Source: Acidimicrobiaceae bacterium
GTDB taxonomy: Bacteria; Actinomycetota; Acidimicrobiia; Acidimicrobiales; RAAP-2
Direction of reading: 5' to 3'
Length of the DNA stretch: 43,831 nucleotides
Assembly: GCA_027306755.1 (NCBI GenBank)
Contig: DAHUZE010000105.1
Span: forward strand, 1-43,831
Below, piece by piece: positions 30,549-42,824 of this stretch (within the stretch, counting starts at the first letter, position 1; every line of letters starts with the position of its first letter). Under the pieces are notes generated by a model that was not told the origin of the DNA, did not search any database, and was given only the letters and a program-made list of their open reading frames with translations. Position numbers and translations under genes: made by a program.

Positions 30549-31490
30549 TCAGCCGACCGACGTGCCTCCAGACGGCCGCTTCACGAGCGTCACCTTCGCC
30601 GTGTCGTGCTTGCCTGTGGTGGCGGTCCAGGCCACCGACACCTTCGTCCCCGGCGGATCCCTCGTGGTGTCGACTTCGAGTGTCAGCGCCGTCACCACCT
30701 TGTGTGTGGCAAAGGCAGTGATGGTGTCCCCCGCCACGATTCCGGCCTTGGAAGCCGGCGAGTTCTTGACGACCGCCACGACGTGCGCTCCCGCCGTCCC
30801 CGACGATGCAGGGGGCGATACCGAAACCTCCACGCCGAGGAATCCCCGCGTTGACGAGGTTCCACTTGTCGCTGGCGAGCCGCTTGTCGCTGCCGAGCCC
30901 CTTGTCGCCGGCGAGCCACTTGTCGCCGGCGAGGAAGTGCCGCGTGTGAGAGGCAACGCCGACCGTGTCCCCGCGGCAGCCGTCGACGAGGAGCCCCAGA
31001 CGATGTAGCCGATACCGACCCCCAGCGCGATCATCGCCGCTGCGGCCAAGCCGGTGGCCAGGGCCAGCAACGGATGAGGGCGCTGGCGCCCCGGGGGGGG
31101 ACCCCCGAACGAGCTCGGCGCCCACTGCCCCGCACCGTAGGGGCTGGGGCCGTAGGGGCTGGGGCCGTACGCGGCGGGACCGTAGGGGCTGGGGCCGTAG
31201 GCGGCGGGGCCGTACGCGGCGGGACCGTAGGGGCTGGGGCCGTAGGGAACGCCCCCCGGGGGGACGGAGCCCGGGGCGGTCCACCCCGGCCAGGTGCCGC
31301 CCCAGCCTGGACCGGCGCCGGGTGGAACCTCAGCGCCAACCGTTGCCGGCCCGGCGGGCCCCTGCGCCGCCGACGGCTCGCCAGTGGCGCCTGCACCGGG
31401 ATCGACCCCCGGAACGGCGTGGCCCTCTGGTGCCACACCGGTGGGCTGCGTCGGGTCGTCGCCCGGCACGACGGGCGGTTGGTCCGACAT
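30549..31490 (-). CDS. Single-pass membrane protein: Pro/Tyr-rich repeat N-terminus, TM, extracellular PDZ domain
   Basis: This 313-residue protein has a cytoplasmic region of about 135 residues rich in Pro and Gly, including about eight YGP[SA][PA] units in tandem. One membrane helix follows (about 140-165, ALATGLAAAAMIALGVGIGYIV), then a linker of SPATSG-like repeats, then a PDZ domain (about 215-305). The PDZ carries GFLGVEVS and SPASKAGIVAGDTITA, as in DegP/HtrA proteins. The protease domain is absent, so it is not a protease; it may recruit exported proteins or wall enzymes. Start ATG 31490 is preceded by AGGAAGG. Both repeat tracts are also DNA tandem repeats and so prone to length change. 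Confidence 0.82.
   Translation of the reverse strand: MSDQPPVVPGDDPTQPTGVAPEGHAVPGVDPGAGATGEPSAAQGPAGPATVGAEVPPGAGPGWGGTWPGWTAPGSVPPGGVPYGPSPYGPAAYGPAAYGPSPYGPAAYGPSPYGPSPYGAGQWAPSSFGGPPPGRQRPHPLLALATGLAAAAMIALGVGIGYIVWGSSSTAAAGTRSALPLTRGTSSPATSGSPATRGSAATSGSPATSGTSSTRGFLGVEVSVSPPASSGTAGAHVVAVVKNSPASKAGIVAGDTITAFATHKVVTALTLEVDTTRDPPGTKVSVAWTATTGKHDTAKVTLVKRPSGGTSVG
30862..30933. repeat. Four 18-bp tandem repeats (SPATSG linker)
   Basis: Four 18-base units of the type CCACTTGTCGCCGGCGAG run without gaps at 30862, 30880, 30898 and 30916. They encode six-residue SPATSG-like units in the extracellular linker of the PDZ protein. Confidence 0.85.
31135..31247. repeat. 15-bp tandem repeats (YGPSP/YGPAA)
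   Basis: Two variants of a 15-base unit, GGGCTGGGGCCGTAG and GCGGCGGGACCGTAG, alternate in tandem and encode YGPSP and YGPAA in the cytoplasmic part of the PDZ protein. This is coding repeat DNA without spacers, not a CRISPR array. Confidence 0.85.
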
Positions 31491-31666: not shown

Positions 31667-31678
31667 TTTAGCACTAAA
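31667..31678. promoter_or_regulatory. Candidate operator TTTAGCACTAAA upstream of the SDR-photolyase operon
   Basis: TTTAG and CTAAA form a palindrome around a 2-base centre. The right arm runs into TAAAAC (31675-31680), a -10-like hexamer 6 bases before ATG 31687, so bound protein would block a leaderless promoter. An identical 12-mer lies at 34164. The nearby CarH-like gene (38557-39402) is the obvious candidate regulator; this link is inferred. Confidence 0.6.
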
Positions 31679-31686
31679 ACTGGGGT

Positions 31687-32736
31687 ATGGGGTCACGAAC
31701 TGCAGGACGCCGATTCCTGGCGGCCCTGACGGGCCCTCTGGAGCTGGCCCTGGACACCTCCCTCGAAGCAACGATCGCAGGAAGCTTCAGCCGCATCGGC
31801 TACCAGGTCAGGGCTCGGTCCCAGCACTGGAAGGACCCCCAACGGCTCGACGAGCATGTCGTGCTCGTTACCGGCGCGTCTTCGGGCATCGGCTTGGCGG
31901 CGGCCGCGACGCTCGGCCGCCTCGGGGCCACCTTGTGGATCGCCGGCCGTGACCCCGATCGGACGGATGCCGCAGCCCGGCAAGCCGCCGAAACCGGCGC
32001 CCCACGAGTGGAGACCGCGGTCGTAGACCTCGCCGACGGCAAGGCGGTGGACGAGCTCGCCAGCCGGATCATCCGAACGGAACGGCGCTTGGACTGCTTG
32101 GTCCACGGCGCCGGGGCGCTCGTCCGGGAGTACACCGAGTCTCCCGACGGCACCGAGCAGACCGTGGCGACGCACGTGCTGGCGCCGTTCCGGCTCACGT
32201 GGCGGCTCCGCACGCTCCTCCGCTCCAACCCGGCAGGTGCGACCATCGTCACGGTCACGTCCGGGGGAATGTACACCCAGCGCTTCGATCTCGACCGCCT
32301 CGCCTCCGGACGAGACGGGTACGACGGCGTGCGCGCCTACGCCCGGTCCAAGCGCGCCCAGGTGGTCCTCTCCCACGAATGGGCACACCGCTGGGGGGCC
32401 GATGGCGTGGCCAGCTACGCCGTCCATCCCGGATGGGTGGCCACTCCCGGCCTCATGGCCGGGCTTCCCGGGTTCGCGCGGCTCGGCCCGCTCCTGCGCC
32501 GCCCTGAGGAAGGTGCGGACACCTTGGTCTGGCTGGCCGCCGGGGCTGCACGATCGCCGGCCCACGGTACCGGGGAGCCCCTGGCCCGAGATGGCCTCTT
32601 CCTGGACCGCAGGCGGCGCAAAGAGCACTACCTGCCGTGGACGCGCGCCGCCGATCCACTCGAGGACCAGCGGCAACTGTGGGCATGGTGCGCCCGCCGG
32701 ACCGGGATCGCAACCGGCGAGGGACGCACCCGATGA
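31687..32736 (+). CDS. Short-chain dehydrogenase/reductase, DHRS12-like
   Basis: This 349-residue SDR has an N-terminal extension of about 55 residues before the cofactor motif VTGASSGIG. Family elements are the NAG-type HGAGA, the catalytic Ser in VTSGGMY and Tyr/Lys in AYARSK. The C-terminal DGLFLDRRRRKEHYLPWT is characteristic of the DHRS12-like branch found in light- and singlet-oxygen-response clusters. The substrate is unknown; a lipid or sterol-like ketone or alcohol is plausible. ATG 31687 lies 6 bases after a -10-like hexamer overlapping the operator. Its stop overlaps the photolyase start as ATGA, so the two genes form an operon. Confidence 0.85.
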   Translation: MGSRTAGRRFLAALTGPLELALDTSLEATIAGSFSRIGYQVRARSQHWKDPQRLDEHVVLVTGASSGIGLAAAATLGRLGATLWIAGRDPDRTDAAARQAAETGAPRVETAVVDLADGKAVDELASRIIRTERRLDCLVHGAGALVREYTESPDGTEQTVATHVLAPFRLTWRLRTLLRSNPAGATIVTVTSGGMYTQRFDLDRLASGRDGYDGVRAYARSKRAQVVLSHEWAHRWGADGVASYAVHPGWVATPGLMAGLPGFARLGPLLRRPEEGADTLVWLAAGAARSPAHGTGEPLARDGLFLDRRRRKEHYLPWTRAADPLEDQRQLWAWCARRTGIATGEGRTR

Positions 32737-34058
32737 CAGCCACGCACGACGCAAGCCCGCCCTGCGTGGCTGTGTTCACCCGGGACCTGCGGCTCCACGA
32801 GAACCCGATGCTCTCTGCGGCGGTGGACAGCGGCCGGCCCGTCGTCCCGGTGTTCGTGCACGACCAGGCCATCATCCGTGGCCTGCCCCGCCGCGCCGAG
32901 CGCGACGCCTACCTCGGGGACGCGCTCGCGGACCTGGACCGATCGCTGCGCGCCCGCGGGGCGGCCCTCGTGCAGCGCCGGGGAGACTGGTCGACTGAGG
33001 TCCTCCGGGTAGCCACCGCGTTCGGAGCTGACACGGTCCATGTCCTGGAGGACGTCACGCCCTACGCCCGTAGGCGGCTCGAGCTGTTGCGCCGGGGCGG
33101 AGGTCGGGTGGCGGTGCACGGGCACGAGGGAGTCACGGTGGTACCCGCCGGAGCGGTGAGGCCGGCGTCGAACGACCACTACTCGGTCTTCACCCCGTAC
33201 CACCACCGGTGGCTGGCGACGCCGTGGCGCTCGATCCGCTCCGGCCCGCGCCACGTTCCCGCCCCGACCGGACTCGGGTCCGCCGCGGATGCCAGGAGCG
33301 CCAGCGGACCCGCCCGCGCCGGCGGACCGTCCGGTGACGGCGGGGAGTCCGGTGCGCGCACGCGGCTGCGCCGTTGGCTCGCCGATGGTCTCGAGCAGTA
33401 CGTCGAGCGGCGCGAGCGCCTGGACGAGGCGGGGGGCTCCTCACGGCTGTCCGTGGACCTCCATTTCGGCTGCCTGTCGGCGCTGGAGGTCGCTGCACGA
33501 GCCCGCTCCCAGGTGGGCGGAGCGCCGTTCGTCCGCCAGCTGTGCTGGCGCGACTTCTACATGCAAGTCGTCACATCGCGCCCGGAGGCGCTGTGGGAGA
33601 ACTTCGCCCGGCGCCCGTGGACTGCCCGCTCCACATCCGGCCAGCTGGACGCCTGGCGTGAGGGACGGACGGGCTACCCGCTGGTGGACGCCGGGATGCG
33701 CCAGCTGTCGGTCGAGGGGTTCCTGCCGAATCGCGCCCGGATGGTGGTGGCCTCCTTCCTTACCAAGCACCTCGGGCTGGACTGGCGCTTAGGGGCGCGG
33801 CACTTCATGGAGCTCCTCGTTGACGCAGACGTAGTCGTCAACAACTTCAATTGGCAATGGACGGGCGGCACGGGGACGGGCAGCCACCCAGAGCGGGCCC
33901 TCAGTCCGGTCCGGCAGGGGAAGCGCTTCGACCCCTCCGGCAGCTACGTGCGGCGATTCGTGCCCGAGCTGGAGGGGCTGCCGGCAGCGCGCGTCCACGA
34001 CCCCACGAGCGAGGACCGACGGCGGGCGGGCTACCCCGCCCCCCTGCTGGCCCGATGA
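32733..34058 (+). CDS. phr: Deoxyribodipyrimidine photolyase-family protein (class I-like)
   Basis: Photolyases use FAD and blue light to repair UV dimers. The 441-residue protein has the N-terminal Rossmann domain (FTRDLRLHENPML) and FAD-domain blocks SVDLHFGCLS, QLCWRDFYMQV, GRTGYPLVDAGMRQL, RARMVVASFLTKHLGLDWR, VNNFNWQW and GKRFDPSGSYVRRFVPEL. It departs from E. coli PhrB just after NWQW. The expected TGTDAAPYFRIFNP reads TGTGSHPERALSP, losing the conserved Asp and the Asn-Pro pair. It may be a variant photolyase or a photolyase-like light sensor. ATG 32733 overlaps the SDR stop; a hairpin follows the gene. Confidence 0.9.
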   Translation: MTATHDASPPCVAVFTRDLRLHENPMLSAAVDSGRPVVPVFVHDQAIIRGLPRRAERDAYLGDALADLDRSLRARGAALVQRRGDWSTEVLRVATAFGADTVHVLEDVTPYARRRLELLRRGGGRVAVHGHEGVTVVPAGAVRPASNDHYSVFTPYHHRWLATPWRSIRSGPRHVPAPTGLGSAADARSASGPARAGGPSGDGGESGARTRLRRWLADGLEQYVERRERLDEAGGSSRLSVDLHFGCLSALEVAARARSQVGGAPFVRQLCWRDFYMQVVTSRPEALWENFARRPWTARSTSGQLDAWREGRTGYPLVDAGMRQLSVEGFLPNRARMVVASFLTKHLGLDWRLGARHFMELLVDADVVVNNFNWQWTGGTGTGSHPERALSPVRQGKRFDPSGSYVRRFVPELEGLPAARVHDPTSEDRRRAGYPAPLLAR

Positions 34059-34100
34059 CCTGTCCTGCCCCGGGCCGCACGGCTGCGCACGGCGGCTCGG

Positions 34101-34124
34101 GGGTGTCCCCAGCTGGAGACACCC
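34101..34124 (+). terminator. Hairpin after the SDR-photolyase operon
   Basis: GGGTGTC (34101-34107) pairs with GACACCC (34118-34124) around CCAGCTGG, itself a palindrome, giving a long stem with one mismatch 43 bases after the photolyase stop. There is no U-tract. Confidence 0.5.
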
Positions 34125-34163
34125 GCTCCGGACCGGGATTGCTCGGCTGCCGGGATGGGTACT

Positions 34164-34175
34164 TTTAGCACTAAA
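34164..34175. promoter_or_regulatory. Candidate operator TTTAGCACTAAA upstream of the lipid-modification operon
   Basis: This is the second exact copy of the 12-base palindrome, 55 bases before GTG 34231. Its right arm overlaps CTAAAT, a possible -10. It sits in the 171-base gap between the photolyase terminator and the FAD oxidoreductase gene. Confidence 0.6.
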
Positions 34176-34230
34176 TGGGCGCCCGGGCGGGAACATCGCT
34201 CCGGTCTTCCCCGTCCTTCCAGGAGCCCAC

Positions 34231-35496
34231 GTGCGGATCGCAGTCATCGGGAGCGGCATCGCTGGCCTCACGGCCTGCCACCTCCTCCACCGCCACCACG
34301 ACGTCCATCTTTTCGAGGCCGACACGCGGATCGGCGGACATGCTCATACCCACACGATCGACGTCGACGGCACCGAGATCGACGTGGACACGGGCTTTCT
34401 CGTCTACAACGACCGCACCTATCCCAGCTTCATCCGGCTCTTGGAACGCCTCGGCGTGGAGACCGAGCCGAGCGACATGAGCTTCAGCGTGAGCGATGCC
34501 CGTACCGGCCTGGAGTGGCGAGGGAGCTCACCGTCCACCGTGTTCGCCCAGCGCCGCAACCTGGCGCACCCTCGCTTCCTGGCCATGCTCGCGGACGTCG
34601 CCCGGTTCAACCACATCGCCCGGCAATTGCTCGACGGCACCGGCGATCCCGAGGACCAGACCGGGTCCCTGGAACGTCTGCTGGCAAGGCACCGCTGGTC
34701 ACCCGGCTTTCTGTCGTGGTACCTCGTCCCCCTGGGATCGGCGATCTGGTCTGCCGATCCGTCCACGTTCACCCAGATCCCCGCCAGGACGTTCGCCGAC
34801 TTCTTCAATCGCCACGGCTTGCTCCGGCTCGGCGATCAGCCGCAGTGGCGCACGCTCCGGGAGCGGTCCCGGAGGTACGTGGACACGATCGCCGCCCCCC
34901 TGGCCCGCGGCGGCCGCGTCCACCTTGGCACGCCGGTCGCCAAGATCGCGCGGGCGGGCCCCCACGGCCCGGTGGAGATCGTGACGCCCGAGGGGTGGGC
35001 CACGTTCGACCATGTGGTGGTGGCGGCGCACAGCGATCAGGCGCTCGCCCTGCTCGGAGACCCGACCCCTGCCGAGCGTGAGGTGCTGGGGCGCATCCGC
35101 TACCAGCCCAACCAGGCCACCTTGCACACCGACACCCGTATGCTGCCCCGCCAGCGCCGGGCGTGGGCGTCGTGGAACTACCACCGACCACGCGGCGAGT
35201 GCCGTCAGGCCACGCTCACCTACTACCTGAACCTGCTGCAACGGCTGCCGGTCTCGAGACCCGTGCTCGTCACGCTCAACCGCCACGACGAGATCGATCC
35301 CGGCAGGATCGTCGCCTCCATGGACTACTCCCACCCGGTTGTGGATGCCGCAGCGGTCGCCGCCCAGCCTCGCCAGCTGGAGCTCAGCGCCGGTACCGTG
35401 TCGTACTGCGGTGCATACTGGGGTTACGGCTTCCACGAAGACGGCGTGGTGAGCGCTGCACGCGTCTGCGCCCGTCTGGGCGGCGACTCGCTGTGA
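34231..35496 (+). CDS. FAD-dependent amine oxidase-like oxidoreductase (COG2907 type)
   Basis: This 421-residue flavoprotein has an N-terminal dinucleotide motif GSGIAGLTACHLL followed by the GG doublet RIGGHAHTH. GFLVYNDRTYPSF and YCGAYWGYGFHEDGV mark the predicted NAD/FAD-binding amine-oxidase-like family that accompanies DUF1365 and cyclopropane-synthase genes. In alpha-proteobacteria, proteins encoded in similar clusters modify membrane fatty acids under singlet-oxygen stress; a fatty-acyl desaturase-like role is possible here but inferred. GTG 34231 has AGGAG at 6 bases. Its stop overlaps the next start as GTGA. It is the first gene of a four-gene operon behind the palindromic operator. 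Confidence 0.87.
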   Translation: MRIAVIGSGIAGLTACHLLHRHHDVHLFEADTRIGGHAHTHTIDVDGTEIDVDTGFLVYNDRTYPSFIRLLERLGVETEPSDMSFSVSDARTGLEWRGSSPSTVFAQRRNLAHPRFLAMLADVARFNHIARQLLDGTGDPEDQTGSLERLLARHRWSPGFLSWYLVPLGSAIWSADPSTFTQIPARTFADFFNRHGLLRLGDQPQWRTLRERSRRYVDTIAAPLARGGRVHLGTPVAKIARAGPHGPVEIVTPEGWATFDHVVVAAHSDQALALLGDPTPAEREVLGRIRYQPNQATLHTDTRMLPRQRRAWASWNYHRPRGECRQATLTYYLNLLQRLPVSRPVLVTLNRHDEIDPGRIVASMDYSHPVVDAAAVAAQPRQLELSAGTVSYCGAYWGYGFHEDGVVSAARVCARLGGDSL

Positions 35497-36338
35497 TCGG
35501 CGAGGTGGCGGGTAAACCGGGGACAACCCGTGCCACGACCTGTGGATCCGGGCGCAGCGCGCTGTACGTCGGCCGAGTCGAGCATCACCGGCCGGACGGC
35601 CCCCGCCATGGCTTCCACTACACGCTGGCGATGCCGCTCCTGTTCGTAGACGAGCTGCCGGCCCTTTCGCGCCTCCACCCCCTGGCCGCCCTGGACCCCG
35701 AGGGCCGCGGCGGGGCGCCGCGACCGCTCCGGCTCCGGCGGGCGGACTTCCTGGCCCCCCACTCAGAGCCCCTCGACGCGGCCGTCCGCCGGGCAGTCGC
35801 TTCCGCCGACGGTCACCCGGAGGGCGCGCTCGGCGGTCCCGGCGACGTCGTCGCCCCCACGTCGGCCCCGGGACCTGTCGCCATGCTGGCCCACCTACGC
35901 ACGTGGGGCTGGCTGTTCAACCCCCTGACCCTCTACTACTGCTACGACCCCACCGGTCGGAGCGTGCAGAACCTGGTGCTGGAGGTGACCAACACCCCGT
36001 GGCACGAACGGGCCGTCTACGTGATCGGCGCGCCGGGCGAGCACCGGGTGCCCAAGGCGATGCACGTGTCCCCCTTCCTCCCGATGGAGCTCGACTACCG
36101 CGTCCGGTACGGCGCGCCGGGTGACCACGTGGAGGTCGGCATCGACGTGGTCGACCGGGCGTCGGGCGCACTCAGGCTGGCCACGGCGCTGCACCTGCAC
36201 CGGCGACCGCTCGACGGGGCAGCCGTGCTCCGGCTCCTCCGGGGGGACCCGGCACGGGTGTCGGCAGGGATCTACCACCAGGCGGTCCGGTTGGGGCGCC
36301 GGGGAGCACGGTTCCACCGCCACCCAGACCATGGCTGA
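35493..36338 (+). CDS. DUF1365 domain-containing protein
   Basis: This 281-residue protein belongs to DUF1365, which almost always neighbours the FAD oxidoreductase and the cyclopropane-synthase-like gene seen here. Hallmarks are VEHHRPDGPRHGFHY near the N-terminus, WGWLFNPLTLYYCYD, LEVTNTPWHER and KAMHVSPFLPMELDYR. It has no signal peptide. The biochemical activity is not known to me; context implies membrane-lipid modification. GTG 35493 overlaps the upstream stop as GTGA, and the gene overlaps the next by 8 bases, so the set is tightly coupled. Confidence 0.85.
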   Translation: MIGEVAGKPGTTRATTCGSGRSALYVGRVEHHRPDGPRHGFHYTLAMPLLFVDELPALSRLHPLAALDPEGRGGAPRPLRLRRADFLAPHSEPLDAAVRRAVASADGHPEGALGGPGDVVAPTSAPGPVAMLAHLRTWGWLFNPLTLYYCYDPTGRSVQNLVLEVTNTPWHERAVYVIGAPGEHRVPKAMHVSPFLPMELDYRVRYGAPGDHVEVGIDVVDRASGALRLATALHLHRRPLDGAAVLRLLRGDPARVSAGIYHQAVRLGRRGARFHRHPDHG

Positions 36339-37578
36339 GCCCGGCGCCATTGCCGATGCGGCCTCGCAGCTGGCGCTGCGCACCGTGGCCCGGTGGGCGG
36401 ACGGGACGAGCGGGGCGTCGTTGACCGTGGAGGGGCCGGGAAGCCGATCCGTCCGGCTCGGGGCCGAGCAGGGATCGCTCCAGGCCACAATCCGCCTCCG
36501 CGACCGGCGAGCCGTCGCGGCGGTCCTCGCCGGCGGCTCCGCCGGCCTGGCCGAGAGCTACGCCAGCGGGTGGTGGGACAGCAAAGACACGACCGCAGCG
36601 GTGCGGGCACTGCTGCGGCTCTCCACCCCCTTGCGGTCCGGCCTCGACCGCGTGGGGCGGAGCCGACCAGGGCGTGTGGTGGCCGCGGTGCGGGCGGGCC
36701 GGGGGCCGAGCGCCGCTGCAGACCGCGACCGTATCGCCGCCCACTACGACTTGTCGAACGACCTGTTCGCGCTCATGCTGGACCCGACGATGACGTACTC
36801 CTGCGCGGTGTTCGAACACCCGGATGCGACCCTCGAGGCGGCCCAGCTGGCCAAGGTGGACCGCCTGGCGGCCAAGCTGGAGCTGACCTCCTCGGACCAC
36901 GTGATCGAGATCGGCACGGGATGGGGCGGCCTGGCCATCCGCCTGGCGCAGACGGTCGGCTGCCGGGTCACCACGACCACCATCTCCGAGGCGCAGAGGT
37001 CCTACGCTCAAGACCGGGTTCGCCGGCTTGCCCTGGAAAAGCAGGTCACGGTCATCGGCGACCACTACCGCGAGCTCCGCGGGACGTTTGACGCCCTGGT
37101 GTCGGTGGAGATGATCGAGGCCGTCGACTGGCGCCATCACGACGAGTTCTTCTCCTGCTGCGCACGCCTGCTCGCGCCGTCGGGGCGGATGGCGCTGCAG
37201 GCCATCACCATGGCCGACCAGTCGTTCGACCGGGCGAAGCAGCACCAGGACTTCATCCGCCGTACCATCTTCCCCGGCGGATGCATCCCGTCGATGGCGT
37301 CCATGACGGCCAGCGTGGCCCGCACGGGTAACCTGCGGCTCGTGGACGTCGAGGACATCGGCCTCCATTACGCCGAGACGCTGCGCCGTTGGCAGGAGCG
37401 GTTCGGCGCCCAGGAGGCGGCGGCAGCCGCCCTCGGGTTCGACGAGCGGTTCCGTAGGCTCTGGCACCTTTACCTGGCTTACTGCCAAGCCGCCTTTCTC
37501 GAACGCCACATCTCAGACGTCCAAATGGTCCTGGCCCGCCCCGGCTGGGCTCCCCGGAGGAGAGTACGCCCGTGCTGA
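36331..37578 (+). CDS. cfa: Cyclopropane-fatty-acyl-phospholipid synthase-family methyltransferase
   Basis: This 415-residue SAM-dependent enzyme adds a methylene or methyl group to double bonds of phospholipid acyl chains at the membrane face. An N-terminal lipid-binding domain (about 1-110) with YASGWWDSKD precedes AHYDLSNDLFALMLDP and MTYSCAVF. The SAM motif EIGTGWGGLAIRLA, SVEMIEAVDWRHHDEFF, the segment IFPGGCIPS and LHYAETLRRWQERF follow. ATG 36331 lies inside the end of the DUF1365 gene, and the stop overlaps the desaturase start by 7 bases. In the photo-oxidative context it could make cyclopropane, methyl-branched or furan-precursor fatty acids; these cannot be told apart from sequence. 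Confidence 0.9.
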   Translation: MAEPGAIADAASQLALRTVARWADGTSGASLTVEGPGSRSVRLGAEQGSLQATIRLRDRRAVAAVLAGGSAGLAESYASGWWDSKDTTAAVRALLRLSTPLRSGLDRVGRSRPGRVVAAVRAGRGPSAAADRDRIAAHYDLSNDLFALMLDPTMTYSCAVFEHPDATLEAAQLAKVDRLAAKLELTSSDHVIEIGTGWGGLAIRLAQTVGCRVTTTTISEAQRSYAQDRVRRLALEKQVTVIGDHYRELRGTFDALVSVEMIEAVDWRHHDEFFSCCARLLAPSGRMALQAITMADQSFDRAKQHQDFIRRTIFPGGCIPSMASMTASVARTGNLRLVDVEDIGLHYAETLRRWQERFGAQEAAAAALGFDERFRRLWHLYLAYCQAAFLERHISDVQMVLARPGWAPRRRVRPC

Positions 37579-38567
37579 CAGTCAAACGACCCTCCGGCGC
37601 GCGGGCCACGTCCGGCGCCCGGGCCACGTCCGGCGCGCGGGCCTCGGCCGGTGCCCGGGCCTTGGAAGCCCGCAACCAGGCAGTCCGGCACCGGGGGATC
37701 AAGAGCATGCGCGTCGGAGTGCCGTTCGTCGCTGTGCACCTGGCCTGCCTGGCTGTGATCGCAGTCGGCTGGAGCCCGGTCGCCGTCGGAACCTGCGTGG
37801 CCCTCTACGTTGCACGGGAATTCGGGATCACGGTCTTCTACCACCGCAATCTCAGCCACAGGGCCTTCCGGCTCCCCCGCGTCGCGCAGGCCGCCGGTGC
37901 GGTGCTCGGAGCCTCGGCTGCCCAGCGCGGCCCGCTGTGGTGGGTTGCCCACCACAGGCGCCACCACCGCTTCACCGACCTCCCCGGGGACCCGCACTCG
38001 CCGGTCGTGGACGGCATGTGGCGTGCCCACCTGTTGTGGCTGTTCGACGCGGCCAACCAGCCGACGGCACGTGAAGAGGTCCCGGACCTCGCCCGGTTCC
38101 CCGAGTTGCGCATCCTGGACCGGTTCCACCACGTCGTCCCCGCCGCCACCGCCCTGGCCTGTTTCGGGCTGGGCACGCTGCTCGCCCGCGCCGGGGTGGA
38201 CACTTCGGGGCTGCAGCTCCTTGTCTGGGGCTTCTGCATCTCCACCGTTGCCCTCTACCATTCGACCTTCGCCGTGAACTCCATCGCCCACCACTTCGGG
38301 AAGCGCAGGTTCGCGACCGGGGACGAAAGCCGCAACAATTGGCTCGTCTCGGCGCTCACCCTCGGCGAGGGCTGGCACAACAACCACCACCGCTGCCCCG
38401 CCGTGGCCCGTCAGGGGTTCGGCCGGCTCGAGCTCGACCCCGGCTGGTGGGTCATCCGGGGCATGTCGCGCCTTGGCATCGCCTCCGCCGTCCGGCTGCC
38501 GGACGAGCGGGTCCTGGCCGAGGGCGGGATCCCCCCCGGGCAACGAGCCCGCCTGCTCAGGCGCTGA
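37572..38567 (+). CDS. Acyl-CoA delta-9-type fatty acid desaturase
   Basis: This 331-residue membrane di-iron desaturase has the three His boxes HRNLSH (91-96), HHRRHH (127-132) and GWHNNHH (267-273), plus NSIAHHFG, around two pairs of hydrophobic helices. It introduces a cis double bond into saturated acyl chains, supplying the olefin that the adjacent cyclopropane-synthase-like enzyme would use. GTG 37572 overlaps the previous stop. Residues 8-31 are a low-complexity SGARAT-like repeat encoded by four 18-bp units, unusual for this family; an internal start at Met46 would skip it. The 3' end overlaps the convergent CarH-like gene by 11 bases. Confidence 0.9.
   Translation: MLTVKRPSGARATSGARATSGARASAGARALEARNQAVRHRGIKSMRVGVPFVAVHLACLAVIAVGWSPVAVGTCVALYVAREFGITVFYHRNLSHRAFRLPRVAQAAGAVLGASAAQRGPLWWVAHHRRHHRFTDLPGDPHSPVVDGMWRAHLLWLFDAANQPTAREEVPDLARFPELRILDRFHHVVPAATALACFGLGTLLARAGVDTSGLQLLVWGFCISTVALYHSTFAVNSIAHHFGKRRFATGDESRNNWLVSALTLGEGWHNNHHRCPAVARQGFGRLELDPGWWVIRGMSRLGIASAVRLPDERVLAEGGIPPGQRARLLRR
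37593..37664. repeat. Four 18-bp tandem repeats at the desaturase N-terminus
   Basis: Four ungapped 18-base units (TCCGGCGCGCGGGCCACG and variants) begin at 37593, 37611, 37629 and 37647. They keep the reading frame and encode SGARAT, SGARAT, SGARAS and AGARAL. Confidence 0.85.
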
Positions 38568-39402
38568 CGTCCAGGACGGCCCGGGACAGTTGGTCGGCAT
38601 CGAGGCCGGACCAGAGCGCGCCCAGGGATGCGGCGTGGTCCGGGCCCTCCATTCCCGCCCCTCCAACCAACCGGGCCACGCCCGGAGCGCTCCTCGAGAC
38701 GGCCGCCATGACCGCTCGGACGGAGCGATCCTGACCGCTTCCGGTGACGCCCACTGCCACGGCCACCACCCGGGGCCTGCACGCGGGTCGGGCCCATGTG
38801 GCCGCCGGGACGTCACAGCCGAGATCCACGACGTCGAACCCCCTGGCCCGCAGGACGTCCGCGGCGATGGCCACCGGCAGCTGGTGCCGCTCCCCAGGGG
38901 GCGCGCCGACGACAACCACGCCCCGACCAACGCCCCGGTGCGCGGCGAGCGGACCCAGCCGGCCGACGATGCGCATGGCGACCGCCGTGGCGCGGTGCTC
39001 GTCCGCCACCGAGATGGAACCCGCCTCCCAACGTTCGCCCACCGTCACCATCGCCGGAGCCAGCATGCCAAGGAGAACCTCTACCAGGCCCGCACCCGAG
39101 ACCAGTGCCTCGTTGAGGAGACGCCACACGCCACCCTCGTCCCCGGCCACCAGGCGTCGTTCCAGTCGGCTGGCACGTTCGGTCCGGCCGGACGCCGGTC
39201 CGGATGCGGCGAGCGTCCAGGCGCGCCTGTCCTCCGTCCCCGTCCGGCGGCGGCCCAGCGCCTCCACCTCGGCCACCGGCACCCGCCACTGCGATCCGAC
39301 CTGCGTCGCCGGGAGGACGCCGGTCCGCACGTAGCGGTAGGCGGTCATGTAGTGGACACCGAGCCGCGCCGCGGCCTCGGGCAGGCTCACCGTGTCGCGC
39401 AC
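38557..39402 (-). CDS. CarH/LitR-like B12-dependent photoreceptor transcription regulator
   Basis: This 281-residue protein has an N-terminal helix-turn-helix (about 5-48, SLPEAAARLGVHYMTAYRYV) of the excisionase/BldC-like type. A four-helix cap (about 85-150) with Trp125, Glu135 and His136 in WEAGSISVADEHRA follows, matching Trp131, Glu141 and His142 of Thermus CarH in spacing. A B12-binding domain has His173 in GERHQLP as the likely lower cobalt ligand. Such proteins bind DNA as tetramers with adenosylcobalamin in the dark and release on light. The motif ends in Pro where the family has Gly (ExHxxG). GTG 39402 has GGGGAGG 4-5 bases upstream. It is convergent to the lipid operon it may control. 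Confidence 0.85.
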   Translation of the reverse strand: MRDTVSLPEAAARLGVHYMTAYRYVRTGVLPATQVGSQWRVPVAEVEALGRRRTGTEDRRAWTLAASGPASGRTERASRLERRLVAGDEGGVWRLLNEALVSGAGLVEVLLGMLAPAMVTVGERWEAGSISVADEHRATAVAMRIVGRLGPLAAHRGVGRGVVVVGAPPGERHQLPVAIAADVLRARGFDVVDLGCDVPAATWARPACRPRVVAVAVGVTGSGQDRSVRAVMAAVSRSAPGVARLVGGAGMEGPDHAASLGALWSGLDADQLSRAVLDVSA

Positions 39403-39440: not shown

Positions 39441-40496
39441 TCACCCTGAGCGGGCGGCGCCCGTCCCCAGATCCGCGTAGGCGGCCGAGAACCGGCCGAT
39501 GGTGGCGACGCACGCGGCCTGCGGCTGCAGCCGGCCGAACGACAGCGTGTGCAGCCAGGTGGCAAGGCCGAAGGCGGGCGTGGCCCGGTAGCGATCCCAC
39601 GCCTCGCTCCACGGCGGCGGTGCGCCCCCGTGGCGGCCGAGTGCGTCCAGGTAGCCAGCGAGCAGCTCCCGCTCGTGCGCCCGCCGGTCCTCCACCGCCA
39701 GGCTGCCGGCCAAGAAGTACCCGACGTCGTGCGACCAGTGCCCGATACGGGCCAGCTGCCAGTCCAAGAAGCCCGTCCGGACGCCGGCGGCGTAGGTGTT
39801 CCCCGGATGTGGGTCCCCGTGCAACATGACCTGCGGGCCGGTGGCGGCCAGGCGGGCACTGCCGGCGAACTGCGAGCCCAGTGCCCTCGCATCGACGCCC
39901 TGGGGGAGCCAGGCCGGAGCGCCGAGGTCCGCCATCCGCCGGACACCCCGGCCGAGGCTCGCCACCGAGACTGCCGCCCATCCCCGGCCCAGGCGCCAGG
40001 GCCGCAGGAAGCCAAGCGCCGGCGGAATCGCTTCGGCCGGGAAGCGAGCGTGCAGGCGCGCCAGCCCTTCCAGTCCCGACGCCACCGCGTCCACCGCCAG
40101 CGGCGATACGGCGTCGTGCGCGGCCCCTCCCAGCACCACGATGTCGTCCATGACCACGACGGTGCCCAGGCGCCCCGGAGCCAAGCCCCCGGCGAAAGGC
40201 CGGGGGTGCTCCAGTGGCAGCACCACGCCGCACGCCGCCAGCATGGCCTCGGTGCCGAGGGCTCCCAGGGCGGCAAGAGCCAGCCGCGGGACGAGGCGCC
40301 CGGAGCGCTTGACGAACACCGACGGCGGTCCGTGCCCCTGCCGGTAGGTCAGGTGGACGCGGGCCCGGGCGTTGGTGCCGTCGTCCACGGGTCCAAGGTT
40401 CACGGAACCGACCACCGCCCCCGGGAGGCGGCCCGCCAACACCGCCGTCATCCAAGGGGGCGTGACGTCGGACCAGCGACGGGGAACAGCGACCAC
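39441..40496 (-). CDS. Aminoglycoside phosphotransferase (APH)-family kinase
   Basis: This 351-residue protein has a kinase-like fold. The catalytic-loop motif is MLHGDPHPGNTY (about 222-233) with Asp and Asn, followed by the metal-binding GFLDWQ about ten residues on, then HDVGYFLAGSL. The N-terminal lobe is divergent (VFVKRSG carries the likely nucleotide Lys). It resembles the choline/ecdysteroid-kinase-like branch of the APH superfamily that phosphorylates small alcohols; antibiotic resistance should not be assumed. GTG 40496 is the start. It ends 38 bases before the CarH-like gene on the same strand, so the two could share a transcript. It is divergent from the hydrolase gene. Confidence 0.82.
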   Translation of the reverse strand: MVAVPRRWSDVTPPWMTAVLAGRLPGAVVGSVNLGPVDDGTNARARVHLTYRQGHGPPSVFVKRSGRLVPRLALAALGALGTEAMLAACGVVLPLEHPRPFAGGLAPGRLGTVVVMDDIVVLGGAAHDAVSPLAVDAVASGLEGLARLHARFPAEAIPPALGFLRPWRLGRGWAAVSVASLGRGVRRMADLGAPAWLPQGVDARALGSQFAGSARLAATGPQVMLHGDPHPGNTYAAGVRTGFLDWQLARIGHWSHDVGYFLAGSLAVEDRRAHERELLAGYLDALGRHGGAPPPWSEAWDRYRATPAFGLATWLHTLSFGRLQPQAACVATIGRFSAAYADLGTGAARSG

Positions 40497-40500
40497 GTCC

Positions 40501-40506
40501 TATGAT
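40501..40506 (+). promoter_or_regulatory. -10 element of the dienelactone hydrolase gene
   Basis: TATGAT lies 4 bases beyond the divergent kinase start. It implies a leader of about 150 bases before GTG 40662, ending in AAGGAG. I saw no clear riboswitch in that leader. Confidence 0.4.
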
Positions 40507-40661
40507 GCATGAAGCCTCAAGTTTCGCAACCGCTATTGCGGGTAGGGGAGGCTGACCGGCGGCGCAAGGCGGCGGCGCCGGCACGGGGCCAGGGATCTTG
40601 GAGCCGCATCGCGGACCCGACGCCGGCCACGCACCAGCGGAGCATCGGACAAGGAGCGAAC

Positions 40662-41243
40662 GTGACCGAGGTTGTCGTCTTCCACCACATCCAGGGCGTC
40701 ACGCCCGGCATCACCCGGTTCGCCGAGGCCCTGACTGTGGCCGGCCACCACGTGACGGTGCCGGACTTCTTCGAGGGCAAGACCTTCGGGTCGATCGAGG
40801 CCGGCCAGAGCTACCTGGGCGAGATCGGCGGCATCCCCTCGATCCTGGAGCGGGCCAGGCTGGCAGCGGACTCGCTCAACCCGGACGTGGTCTTTGCGGG
40901 GTTCTCCCTCGGAGTGGCGCCGGCGCAGATGCTGGCGCAGACGAGATCGGGTGCCCGCGGTGCGCTCCTCTACCACGCGTGCCTCCCGGTGTCGGAGTTC
41001 GGGGAGACGTGGCCCGCAGGCGTGCCCGTCCAGATCCACGGGGCGGAGGACGATCCGTACTTCGCCCACGAGGGCGACCTGGCCGCCGCTCGGGCGCTGG
41101 TGGAGGCAACGCCGGAAGCCGAGCTGTTCCTCTACTCCGGGAGCGCGCACCTGTTCGCCGACGACAGCCTGGCGAGCCACAACCAGGAATCAGCCAATCT
41201 GCTCATGGAGCGCACCTTGGAGTTCCTCGCCCGGGTTGGATAG
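40662..41243 (+). CDS. Dienelactone hydrolase-family protein
   Basis: This 193-residue alpha/beta hydrolase has the nucleophile Ser82 in AGFSLGVAPAQ, Asp131 in HGAEDDPYF and His163 in SGSAHLFAD. Classical dienelactone hydrolases use Cys at the nucleophile; this Ser variant is common among uncharacterised actinobacterial members, so the substrate is open. No signal peptide is present. GTG 40662 is chosen because AAGGAG lies 5 bases before it; the frame is open 51 codons further upstream without a ribosome site. It is alone, 60 bases before the MFS gene, which has its own promoter. Confidence 0.88.
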   Translation: MTEVVVFHHIQGVTPGITRFAEALTVAGHHVTVPDFFEGKTFGSIEAGQSYLGEIGGIPSILERARLAADSLNPDVVFAGFSLGVAPAQMLAQTRSGARGALLYHACLPVSEFGETWPAGVPVQIHGAEDDPYFAHEGDLAAARALVEATPEAELFLYSGSAHLFADDSLASHNQESANLLMERTLEFLARVG

Positions 41244-41294
41244 CCAGAGCCCATCTCGGCACCTGGGGTTGACCGGGGCCCGGGAGGGGGCCTC

Positions 41295-41300
41295 TAGCCT
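41295..41300 (+). promoter_or_regulatory. Leaderless -10 element of the MFS gene
   Basis: TAGCCT is followed by exactly 6 bases and ATG 41307, the ideal geometry for a leaderless transcript. It favours ATG 41307 over the adjacent GTG 41304. Confidence 0.5.
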
Positions 41301-41306
41301 GACGTG

Positions 41307-42824
41307 ATGGCTACGACCGGGGCACCGACGCACCAGCCGCATGCGGACCTGGACCCCAAGCGCTGGTGGATCCTGGCGCTGTGCGGCCTGGGCCAACTGA
41401 TGGTGGTGCTCGACCTGACCGTGGTCAACATCGCCCTGCCGAAGGCGCAGGCGGCCCTCGGCTTCTCCAACAACGACCGGCAATGGGTCGTGACCGCCTA
41501 CGCGCTGGCGTTCGGAGGCCTCCTGCTCGTGGGCGGCCGGCTGTCGGACCGGATCGGGCGGAAGTGGACCTTCATCGTCGGCATGGCCGGGTTCGCGATC
41601 GCCTCAGCCGTCGGCGGAGCCGCCCAGTCGTTCACCATGCTGGCGGCGGCACGGGCGGTGCAGGGCGTCTTCGCTGCGCTGCTGGCGCCGTCCACGCTGT
41701 CACTCCTGACCACCACGTTCGCTGAGCCGCAGGAGCGCGGGAAGGCCTTCGGCATCTTCTCCGCCATCGCCGGGTCGGGAAGCGCCGTCGGCCTCCTGCT
41801 GGGTGGGGTGCTCACCACCTATCTGAGCTGGCGCTGGTGCCTGTACGTCAACGACGTCATCGCCGGGTTCGGCCTGTTCGGTGCGGCCACGCTTCTCGAG
41901 AGTGGTACCGGGGACCCGCGGGTCCGCATCGACGATCCGGGGATCTTTGCCGGTGTGGCCGGGTTGGTGGCGCTCGTCTTCGGGTTCTCCGAGGCCTCAC
42001 TGTACGGCTGGAGCTCGGCCGATACCCTGGTGCCGCTGCTGCTGACCGTGGCCCTGTTGACCGGGTTCGTGCTGATGGAGCGGCGCGCCGCCCACCCCGT
42101 GCTGCCCCTGGACGTGCTCTTGGACCGTCGCCGCGGCGCCTCGTACCTGACGATCCTCCTCCTGGCCATCGGGATGTTCGGGGTCTTCCTCTTCCTGACC
42201 TACTACCTCGAGGCGATCGCCGGTTACACGGCCGTCCGAGCCGGTCTGGCCTTCATCCCCCTGACGGTGAGCGTGGTGGCGGCGTCGATCCTCACCAACA
42301 CGCGCCTGCTCCCCCGGTTCGGGGCGCGGGCGATCGTGCCCGTAGCGTCGATCTTCGGCGCGGTGGCCATGATCTACTTCGCCCAGCTAAGCCTGTCCAC
42401 GACCTACTGGAGCGGGATCTTCCCCCCCGACGTCGTCTTCGGCCTCGCCATGGGCGCCATCTTCGGCTGCTGCCTCAACATGGCGACCGCCGGCACGGGG
42501 CCGGACACCGCCGGCGTCGCCTCGGCTCTCGTGACGACCGGCCAGCAGGTAGGAGGCTCGATCGGCACCTCGCTGCTCAACACCATCGCCACCAGTGTCG
42601 CGGCCACGTTCCTGGCCACGCACGCCAGCAGGGCCTTCCTGGCCACGCACGCCCGGTCGATCGCCCGGACCGCGGTGTGGGCCGCTGCCCAGGTGCATTC
42701 CTACGACGTGTCGTTCTACGTGGCCGCCGGGTTCATCTTCGCAGCAGGGGTGAGTGCGGCCGTCATCTACCCGCCGGGGAGCCGGCGGCCTGCCGACAGC
42801 GAGCCGTCGGTTGTCCCGGCGTAG
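41307..42824 (+). CDS. MFS drug exporter, DHA2 (EmrB/QacA) family, 14 TM
   Basis: This proton-driven exporter has 505 residues. The hydrophobic profile suggests 14 helices. Characteristic motifs are WWILALCGLGQLMVVLDLTV with VVNIALPKAQAALG (motif D1), GRLSDRIGRKW (motif A) and GSAVGLLLGGVL (motif C). DHA2 members export drugs or hydrophobic compounds across the inner membrane; the substrate is unknown. No TetR or MarR gene flanks it. Two short repeats near residues 434-448 read ATHASRAFLATHARS, from a local duplication of FLATHA. The CMD-like gene follows after 25 bases. Confidence 0.9.
   Translation: MATTGAPTHQPHADLDPKRWWILALCGLGQLMVVLDLTVVNIALPKAQAALGFSNNDRQWVVTAYALAFGGLLLVGGRLSDRIGRKWTFIVGMAGFAIASAVGGAAQSFTMLAAARAVQGVFAALLAPSTLSLLTTTFAEPQERGKAFGIFSAIAGSGSAVGLLLGGVLTTYLSWRWCLYVNDVIAGFGLFGAATLLESGTGDPRVRIDDPGIFAGVAGLVALVFGFSEASLYGWSSADTLVPLLLTVALLTGFVLMERRAAHPVLPLDVLLDRRRGASYLTILLLAIGMFGVFLFLTYYLEAIAGYTAVRAGLAFIPLTVSVVAASILTNTRLLPRFGARAIVPVASIFGAVAMIYFAQLSLSTTYWSGIFPPDVVFGLAMGAIFGCCLNMATAGTGPDTAGVASALVTTGQQVGGSIGTSLLNTIATSVAATFLATHASRAFLATHARSIARTAVWAAAQVHSYDVSFYVAAGFIFAAGVSAAVIYPPGSRRPADSEPSVVPA

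Follow-up and report, generated by a model that had tools for sequence, protein, structure and literature searches.

Two operons in a stretch of 43,831 nucleotides from an Acidimicrobiaceae bacterium (contig DAHUZE010000105.1, hereafter the window) are each preceded by the same 12-bp palindrome, TTTAGCACTAAA, and the gene island to which they belong ends with a gene for a regulator resembling the vitamin B12 photoreceptors CarH and LitR. Is the palindrome the operator of this regulator, and do the two together form a light switch, as an earlier note on this DNA had supposed? According to the analyses reported here, TTTAGCACTAAA is very likely the operator of the neighbouring CarH-like regulator, a prediction made from sequence, and the regulator likely acts in the dark as a repressor that light, by way of B12, sets free from the DNA. 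The complete reading, in which the regulator carrying adenosylcobalamin would repress photolyase, SDR and furan-fatty-acid-type genes in the dark and would be released by light, was assigned a probability of about three in four.

A scan of the whole window returned exactly the two copies that the earlier note had listed (Table 1), one in front of the SDR and photolyase genes and the other in front of the FAD oxidoreductase, DUF1365, CFA synthase and desaturase genes; Pfam searches confirmed this gene order and the B12-binding regulator at the end of the island. When up to three mismatches were allowed, the same two places were found, each matching on both strands, and since this count of four was reached by 9 of 100 shuffles of the window, significance attaches to the exact copies alone. 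Under a first-order model, about 7e-6 exact copies are to be expected per strand of the window, bearing out the claim that chance recurrence is very unlikely, and in the organism's own genome (2,554,698 bases, 82% complete) the word TTTAGNNCTAAA at up to one mismatch was confined to these two window places. The gap from the end of site 1 to the ATG of the SDR gene is 8 bases, and that from the end of site 2 to the GTG of the FAD oxidoreductase gene is 55. In both cases the right arm overlaps a -10-like hexamer, as had been claimed, identified here as TAAAAC and TAAATG respectively; six bases separate TAAAAC from the SDR ATG, and the SDR-photolyase transcript is perhaps leaderless.

Conservation was evaluated in related regulator loci, collected by a scan with an alignment of 18 regulator sequences; of its 281 confirmed stretches the best 80 were used (1.22 Mb, 68% GC). 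By record label, 38 of them belong to Acidimicrobiia, Acidimicrobiales, Acidimicrobiaceae, Ilumatobacter, Ilumatobacteraceae or Microthrix, while most of the rest are called just "actinobacterium". The palindrome occurred 60 times at up to one mismatch, 25 times exactly and 35 times with one mismatch; in the same loci the mirror word occurred once and ten permuted palindromes 0-2 times. At least one site was present in 43 of the 80 loci at up to one mismatch and in 57 at up to two, the corresponding values for the mirror word being 1 and 7. A few records carry odd labels (Bifidobacterium, two; Saccharibacteria and Acidobacteria, one each); the regulators of these loci (L125, L168, L150 and L155, labelled Bifidobacterium breve, Saccharibacteria or Acidobacteria) cluster with Acidimicrobiia-titled sequences in the tree, and they are probably mislabelled metagenome-assembled genomes.

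The sites were found where an operator of this circuit would be expected. At up to two mismatches and within 250 bp upstream, a site preceded the FAD oxidoreductase gene in 27 of 32 cases, the regulator gene in 37 of 80, the SDR gene in 6 of 34 and the photolyase gene in 1 of 8; the first of these counts shows that the motif was kept in orthologous promoters, a check that the earlier note had proposed. Under the same conditions no site was detected before the inner genes (DUF1365 0/28, CFA 0/8, desaturase 0/1), and the mirror word gave zero for every gene type. In a far interval from -1250 to -990 the counts were 1/72 for the regulator, 0/31 for the FAD oxidoreductase, 3/34 for the SDR, 0/28 for DUF1365 and 0/8 for CFA; the 3/8 obtained there for the photolyase is expected because the SDR gene comes first in the operon. 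In our opinion, the low SDR and photolyase counts near the genes reflect genes lying mostly inside operons, or sites in divergent promoters that are nearer to the other gene. In loci L081, L083, L086, L087, L090-L092, L094, L095 and L098 a site with one or two mismatches was located upstream of the regulator gene, and in a scan of the phylum 6 of 14 loci of the window's kind (L191-L204, about 1.5 kb on each side) contained a site at up to two mismatches, against 0 of 14 loci of a more distant kind (L205-L218).

Independently of the regulator loci, TTTAGNNCTAAA was present in 19 of 100 related genomes, the organism's own included, and its matches were made into 20 loci, two from the own genome and 18 from relatives. 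Sites with a CA/TG centre occurred in 11 genomes apart from G095, and each of the 11 loci (L001, L004, L005, L008, L010, L011, L014, L015, L017, L018, L019) adjoined relatives of the SDR, FAD oxidoreductase or photolyase genes, whereas none of the eight loci with other centres (L003, L006, L007, L009, L012, L013, L016, L020) had such a neighbour. G095 is A/T-rich (34% GC in locus L006) and holds 27 copies of TTTAGNNCTAAA; its two CA/TG places are outside the 11-genome count.

Alignment of 75 non-redundant sites returned TTTAGCACTAAA with A/T flanks. The centre of the exact sites was pyrimidine-purine in 30 of 30 cases in the 80 loci (CA/TG 25, TA 4, CG 1) and in 39 of 39 (32, 6 and 1) when loci L081-L110 were added, some of which had been fetched for their site. 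The site is thus read, at the level of sequence, as two abutting inverted half-sites, TTTAGY·RCTAAA, that is TTTAG plus C or T placed back to back. A DNA kink at the centre was also considered as the cause of the pyrimidine-purine rule, but a back-to-back pair of TTTAGY half-sites accounts for the centre more simply, and the kink was given up. When 51 sites were oriented by their genes, a T followed the core by two bases in 61% of them, generating the -10-like hexamer TAAANT, and the mirrored A was present in 53%, so that both directions would be served. The distance from site end to a possible start codon was 8 bases for the window SDR and in L104 and 9 in L086, and again 8 for the L082 photolyase and the L083 regulator, both at the farthest in-frame start; such gaps of 8-9 bases would fit leaderless transcripts. 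No -35 consensus was detected upstream of the 51 sites, and no single spacing rule emerged for paired sites, as pairs within 60 bp occurred at 16, 18, 32, 33 and 34 bp in 5 of the 80 loci. The CIRCE element of HrcA, with the half TTAGCACTC, was rejected: TTAGCACT is common to both, but inspection by eye revealed no inverted partner at 9 bases, and the genes alongside do not code for chaperones.

The presence of the word was then compared with that of the regulator in 395 genomes of the class, an orthologue being accepted at E 1e-60 or better (91 genomes). TTTAGYRCTAAA was found in 80 of the 395 genomes, 52 of the 91 with the regulator and 28 of the 304 without a scored orthologue (Fisher 1.9e-20). 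The cut-off was chosen after seeing the score gap, the genome lists were copied by hand, and G118, whose regulator is seemingly split over two contigs, was tallied as regulator-free. Exclusion of families f53 (42 genomes) and f56 (3), small genomes that the mirror counts suggest to be A/T-rich, left 52 of 91 with the regulator against 12 of 259 without. The mirror word showed no link to the regulator in this reduced set (7 of 91 with it, 33 of 259 without), and over all 395 genomes it was commoner without the regulator (64 of 304 against 7 of 91).

A second comparison concerned the FAD oxidoreductase promoter. The gene was present in 31 relatives, 30 of which were used, as the fragmentary G030 gave no locus, and a site was counted at up to two mismatches upstream of the gene or of its SDR-led operon. 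Of the 16 relatives that have the regulator, 14 showed the site, as did 2 of the 14 that lack it (Fisher 1.3e-4). The regulator is present and the site absent in G056 and G066, while the reverse holds for G012 and G019, in both of which the contig ends inside the operon, before the usual place of the regulator. The expectation that regulator-free genomes lack the motif was therefore largely borne out for these promoters, and it held for most genomes of the class as a whole, the exceptions being the 28 mentioned above that hold the word.

The predicted protein was examined for features of a B12 photoreceptor. All 18 members of its alignment contain B12-binding_2 and B12-binding domains preceded by an HTH_17 domain, MerR being matched in 1 of 18, whereas the N-terminus of CarH and LitR is of the MerR type. 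An AlphaFold model (pLDDT 91.8) gave the CarH-DNA complex 5c8e as best fold match over the whole length (E 6.3e-14) with a TM score of 0.60 and a root-mean-square deviation of 12.8; the domains therefore fit, and their arrangement differs. The NCBIfam CarH equivalog returned 66.3 bits against a cut-off of 400, along residues 77-265, the B12 part, alone. Residues W125, E135, H136 and H173 (GERH) align with the Trp, Glu-His and lower-ligand His of TtCarH, which are cobalamin-site residues, and have frequencies of at least 0.9 both in the window's group and in the distant group described below (110 sequences). One copy of the regulator (L098:8423-9181, genome G066) is without the Trp and the Glu-His pair and keeps the last His, with the near-motif TTTAGTGCTCAA upstream; this is perhaps a light-blind derivative.

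Thirty distant HTH_17-B12 regulators, fetched from the class scan and from a phylum scan (396 genomes, 30 matching), offered a further view of the half-site. In the 200 bases upstream of these genes the pattern TYAGY formed direct repeats at 10, 20 and 30 bp in 14, 9 and 3 cases, as overlapping arrays, against a mean of 0.41 and a maximum of 4 for the 10-bp repeat in 300 control draws from the same loci. No abutting inverted pair occurred upstream of the 30 genes, any other direct spacing occurred at most once, and the 12-mer at up to two mismatches was found in 2 of the 30 loci. Conversely, the 80 loci of the window's group contained 19 inverted pairs (control mean 0.84, maximum 4) and a single 10-bp direct repeat. 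The 10-bp repeats came from 10 of the 30 distant loci (L222, L224, L227, L229, L231, L239, L241, L243, L244, L246), and this direct-repeat branch is represented in the window's order and in several further families of the phylum. The recognition helix is nearly identical, HYMTAYRYVR in the window's group and HY(Q/M)TAYRWVR in the distant one. Position 24 is Tyr in the former and Trp in the latter, with a rounded frequency of 1.0 in each, and the wing residue W39 of the window's group is mostly Leu or Tyr in the distant group. A tree placed 27 of the 30 distant sequences apart with support of 100/99; the other three, L235-L237, stand beside the window's group and have neither an upstream half-site nor a 12-mer at up to three mismatches.

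On the strength of those 10 of 30 loci, one half-site is probably read in two geometries. Since the recognition helix is nearly constant, the change of geometry should lie in the pairing of the subunits, for which position 24 (Tyr/Trp) and the wing Trp39 are candidates. The broader proposal, for which the balance is slightly favourable, is that B12 light regulators of one actinobacterial branch, whose DNA-binding domain is of the excisionase type, would read TYAGY either as 10-bp direct repeats or as inverted pairs placed on the -10 element, the geometry having changed around a near-constant helix. No description of such an HTH_17-type B12 regulator branch was found in the literature searched.

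These data suggest the following mechanism. In the dark, two regulator subunits with adenosylcobalamin would bind one half-site each, the recognition helix HYMTAYRYVR reading TYAGY, and would block RNA polymerase at the site overlapping the -10 element. Light would break the Co-C bond and release the regulator, and photolyase, SDR and a furan-fatty-acid-type lipid pathway would then be produced against photo-oxidative damage.

The regulator resembles CarH or class I LitR of Thermus, Bacillus and myxobacteria in having an N-terminal winged-helix domain followed by B12-binding_2 and B12-binding domains. The CarH operator consists of tandem 11-bp direct repeats, nnnnTnnACAn, and known CarH sites also overlap promoter elements (PMC9304148). 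The head-to-tail order of the CarH repeats recalls the 10-bp direct repeats of the distant branch, whereas the window operator is an inverted TTTAGY pair, with no match to that repeat, in line with the earlier statement that the motif is unlike the TACA-containing CarH repeats. Class II LitR proteins (Pseudomonas PplR and PmlR) keep one of the two B12-binding domains, recognise T(G/A)TACA-N12-TGTACA and, in P. mendocina, work with a short LOV protein (PMC9758184); the conserved motif described here is another word, the window being unscanned for TGTACA pairs. As the site matches neither of these published operators, the proposal of a new class of operator holds as far as sequence goes, with the refinement that its unit is the half-site TTTAGY and not the 12-mer.

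The genes around the regulator are familiar company. In Pseudomonas, phrB, SDR, FAD oxidoreductase and ufaM genes lie beside a class II LitR (PMC9758184). In Rhodobacter, the genes RSP1091-1087 with ufaD and ufaO, and ufaM, are raised by loss of ChrR, and in domains and order three genes of operon 2 are like UfaD (NAD-FAD-binding), UfaO (DUF1365) and UfaM (methylase) (PMC7380195); control there is by ChrR, in contrast to the palindromic operator and CarH-like protein found here, and the likeness is one of domains only. Thus, the gene company was already known, and the type of regulator and the operator are new. A search of 5.39 million open-access papers for the exact TTTAGCACTAAA returned eight, judged by title to deal with tick-borne pathogens (seven) and Enterococcus (one), most subscription papers lying outside the search, and a query combining Acidimicrobi-, CarH and photolyase in the same literature matched only an optogenetics review.

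Sites also preceded other genes. ECF sigma genes with a site in front were found in L120, L127, L186 and L147, all checked by Pfam (L120:11015-11059, L127:10940-10983, L186:10898-10943, L147:9866-9877), and in L165 (L165:310-321) without a Pfam check. In L120, L127 and L186 paired sites 32-34 bp apart precede the sigma gene and SDR or photolyase follows; in L120 an RskA-like anti-sigma gene comes after the sigma gene. These loci are perhaps a two-step form of the same circuit, and recall Streptomyces, in which an actinobacterial B12-based light regulator, LitR, acts on the ECF sigma gene litS (PMC12705666), although the window sites lie directly 5' of the effector operons. The text consulted on Streptomyces LitR names no operator. 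In L107:8153-9477 (G035) an exact motif is followed by a fasciclin-domain gene and then by an ECF sigma gene, and in L109:7965-9527 (G053) TTTAGTACTAAA lies immediately 5' of an NAD(P)-binding/DUF2867 gene; the fasciclin and DUF2867 genes are possible extra members of the regulon. In L102:7752-9587 (G065), a genome without FAD oxidoreductase at E 1e-60, the exact motif is followed by an SRPBCC (Polyketide_cyc2) gene and then by an SDR gene.

Several observations weigh against the assignment of the palindrome to a light-released repressor. The exact word is missing from 39 of the 91 class genomes with the regulator, and the 28 of 304 genomes (12 of 259 without the two families) in which it occurs have no scored orthologue. 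No site at up to two mismatches was present in 23 of the 80 regulator loci, some of them on short contigs, and an Ilumatobacteraceae-like subclade (21 loci among L113-L190) had a site in 2 loci at up to one mismatch and in 4 at up to two; inspection by eye of the regions upstream of its 21 regulator genes revealed no common half-site arrangement that could represent a shared operator. The promoter of the window's own regulator contains no copy at up to three mismatches. Twenty of the 30 distant relatives lack the 10-bp repeat, and the pattern TYAGY was set after these sequences had been viewed. Finally, TtCarH H132, next to the conserved Trp and acting in the light state, corresponds to E126 in the window, and the light adduct, if any, should therefore differ; across the window's group this position is occupied by Ala (0.4) or Glu (0.3), and in the distant group about 0.2 of the sequences have His.

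The lack of conservation of this His also speaks for an explanation that we regard as unlikely, namely that light is not the signal: the regulator, though bound to the site, would respond to B12 supply or to redox state, or would act as an activator in the way of Streptomyces LitR, which promotes litS transcription in the light (PMC12705666). The ECF sigma genes among the apparent targets of a few loci would fit it too. However, the overlap with the -10-like hexamer fits repression better than activation, the counterparts of the CarH cobalamin-site residues are conserved, and phrB and ufaM of Pseudomonas are light-inducible under class II LitR (PMC9758184).

It is far less probable that another regulator or an ECF sigma factor reads the palindrome and that the CarH-like gene is a mere neighbour. 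The sites before the four Pfam-checked ECF sigma genes and the word in genomes without a scored orthologue would agree with this; against it stand the 37 of 80 loci in which the regulator's own gene has a site in front, the sites on contigs other than that of the regulator (L105, L106 and L108, with a photolyase gene preceded by the site in L106 and L108), and the recurrence of the half-site before distant regulators with a near-identical recognition helix. Promoters read by sigma factors do not usually take the form of an inverted repeat, and since the core of the site does, the reading as such a promoter was abandoned. That the palindrome is simply a symmetric bidirectional -10 element and no operator is hardly credible: TAAANT does point outward on both strands and single sites do lie between divergent genes, but the fixed TTTAGY.RCTAAA core goes beyond what a -10 element requires and is missing from 12 of 14 FAD oxidoreductase promoters of regulator-free relatives, and the half-site recurs elsewhere as direct repeats. 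Chance recurrence of an A/T-rich word can be dismissed, for although four of the 84 distinct 5+2+5 palindromic 12-mers of the window recur, the other three being G+C-rich, it is contradicted by conservation, placement and the mirror and permuted controls.

Table 1. Predicted operators, promoter hexamers and genes of the island, in window coordinates
Feature	Position	Strand	Basis
Operator 1 (predicted), TTTAGCACTAAA, two abutting inverted TTTAGY half-sites	31667..31678	.	sequence; conserved in related loci
-10-like hexamer TAAAAC, overlapped by right arm of operator 1	31675..31680	+	sequence; logo of 51 sites; inference
SDR-family oxidoreductase, first gene of operon 1	31687..32736	+	Pfam adh_short 7.4e-26
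DNA photolyase/cryptochrome family protein	32733..34058	+	Pfam FAD_binding_7 5.1e-62, DNA_photolyase 1e-32
Operator 2 (predicted), TTTAGCACTAAA	34164..34175	.	sequence; gene-oriented site logo
-10-like hexamer TAAATG, overlapped by right arm of operator 2	34172..34177	+	sequence; inference
FAD/NAD-binding oxidoreductase, UfaD-like by operon context	34231..35496	+	Pfam Amino_oxidase 2.3e-21; UfaD description in PMC7380195
DUF1365 protein, UfaO-like, start codon uncertain	35493..36338	+	Pfam 6.8e-50; UfaO holds DUF1365, PMC7380195
CFA/CMAS-type S-adenosylmethionine (SAM) methyltransferase, UfaM-like by context, start codon uncertain	36331..37578	+	Pfam CMAS 1.9e-81
Fatty-acid desaturase	37572..38567	+	Pfam FA_desaturase 1e-23
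CarH-like regulator: HTH_17 (6-49), B12-binding_2 (79-149), B12-binding (162-251)	38557..39402	-	Pfam; AlphaFold model; fold match

Outside the island, the gene for a PDZ-domain protein (30549-31490, minus strand) has an N-terminal, repeat-rich, low-complexity coding region at 31110-31290 built of gccgtaggggctgggg-type units. The region past the regulator (39441-42824) contains genes for an APH-family phosphotransferase-like protein, a dienelactone hydrolase-like protein and an MFS transporter, in which no link to the island was seen.

Taken as a light-released operator, the palindrome would define a predicted light regulon for an actinobacterial class known mainly from metagenome-assembled genomes, and would bring photolyase and a Ufa-like lipid operon of Actinobacteria under the control of a B12 light sensor. 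At 12 bp the site may be short enough for building light-controlled promoters. Should both geometries prove real, the sister groups would represent a natural experiment in which direct- and inverted-repeat binding can be compared with an unchanged reading helix.

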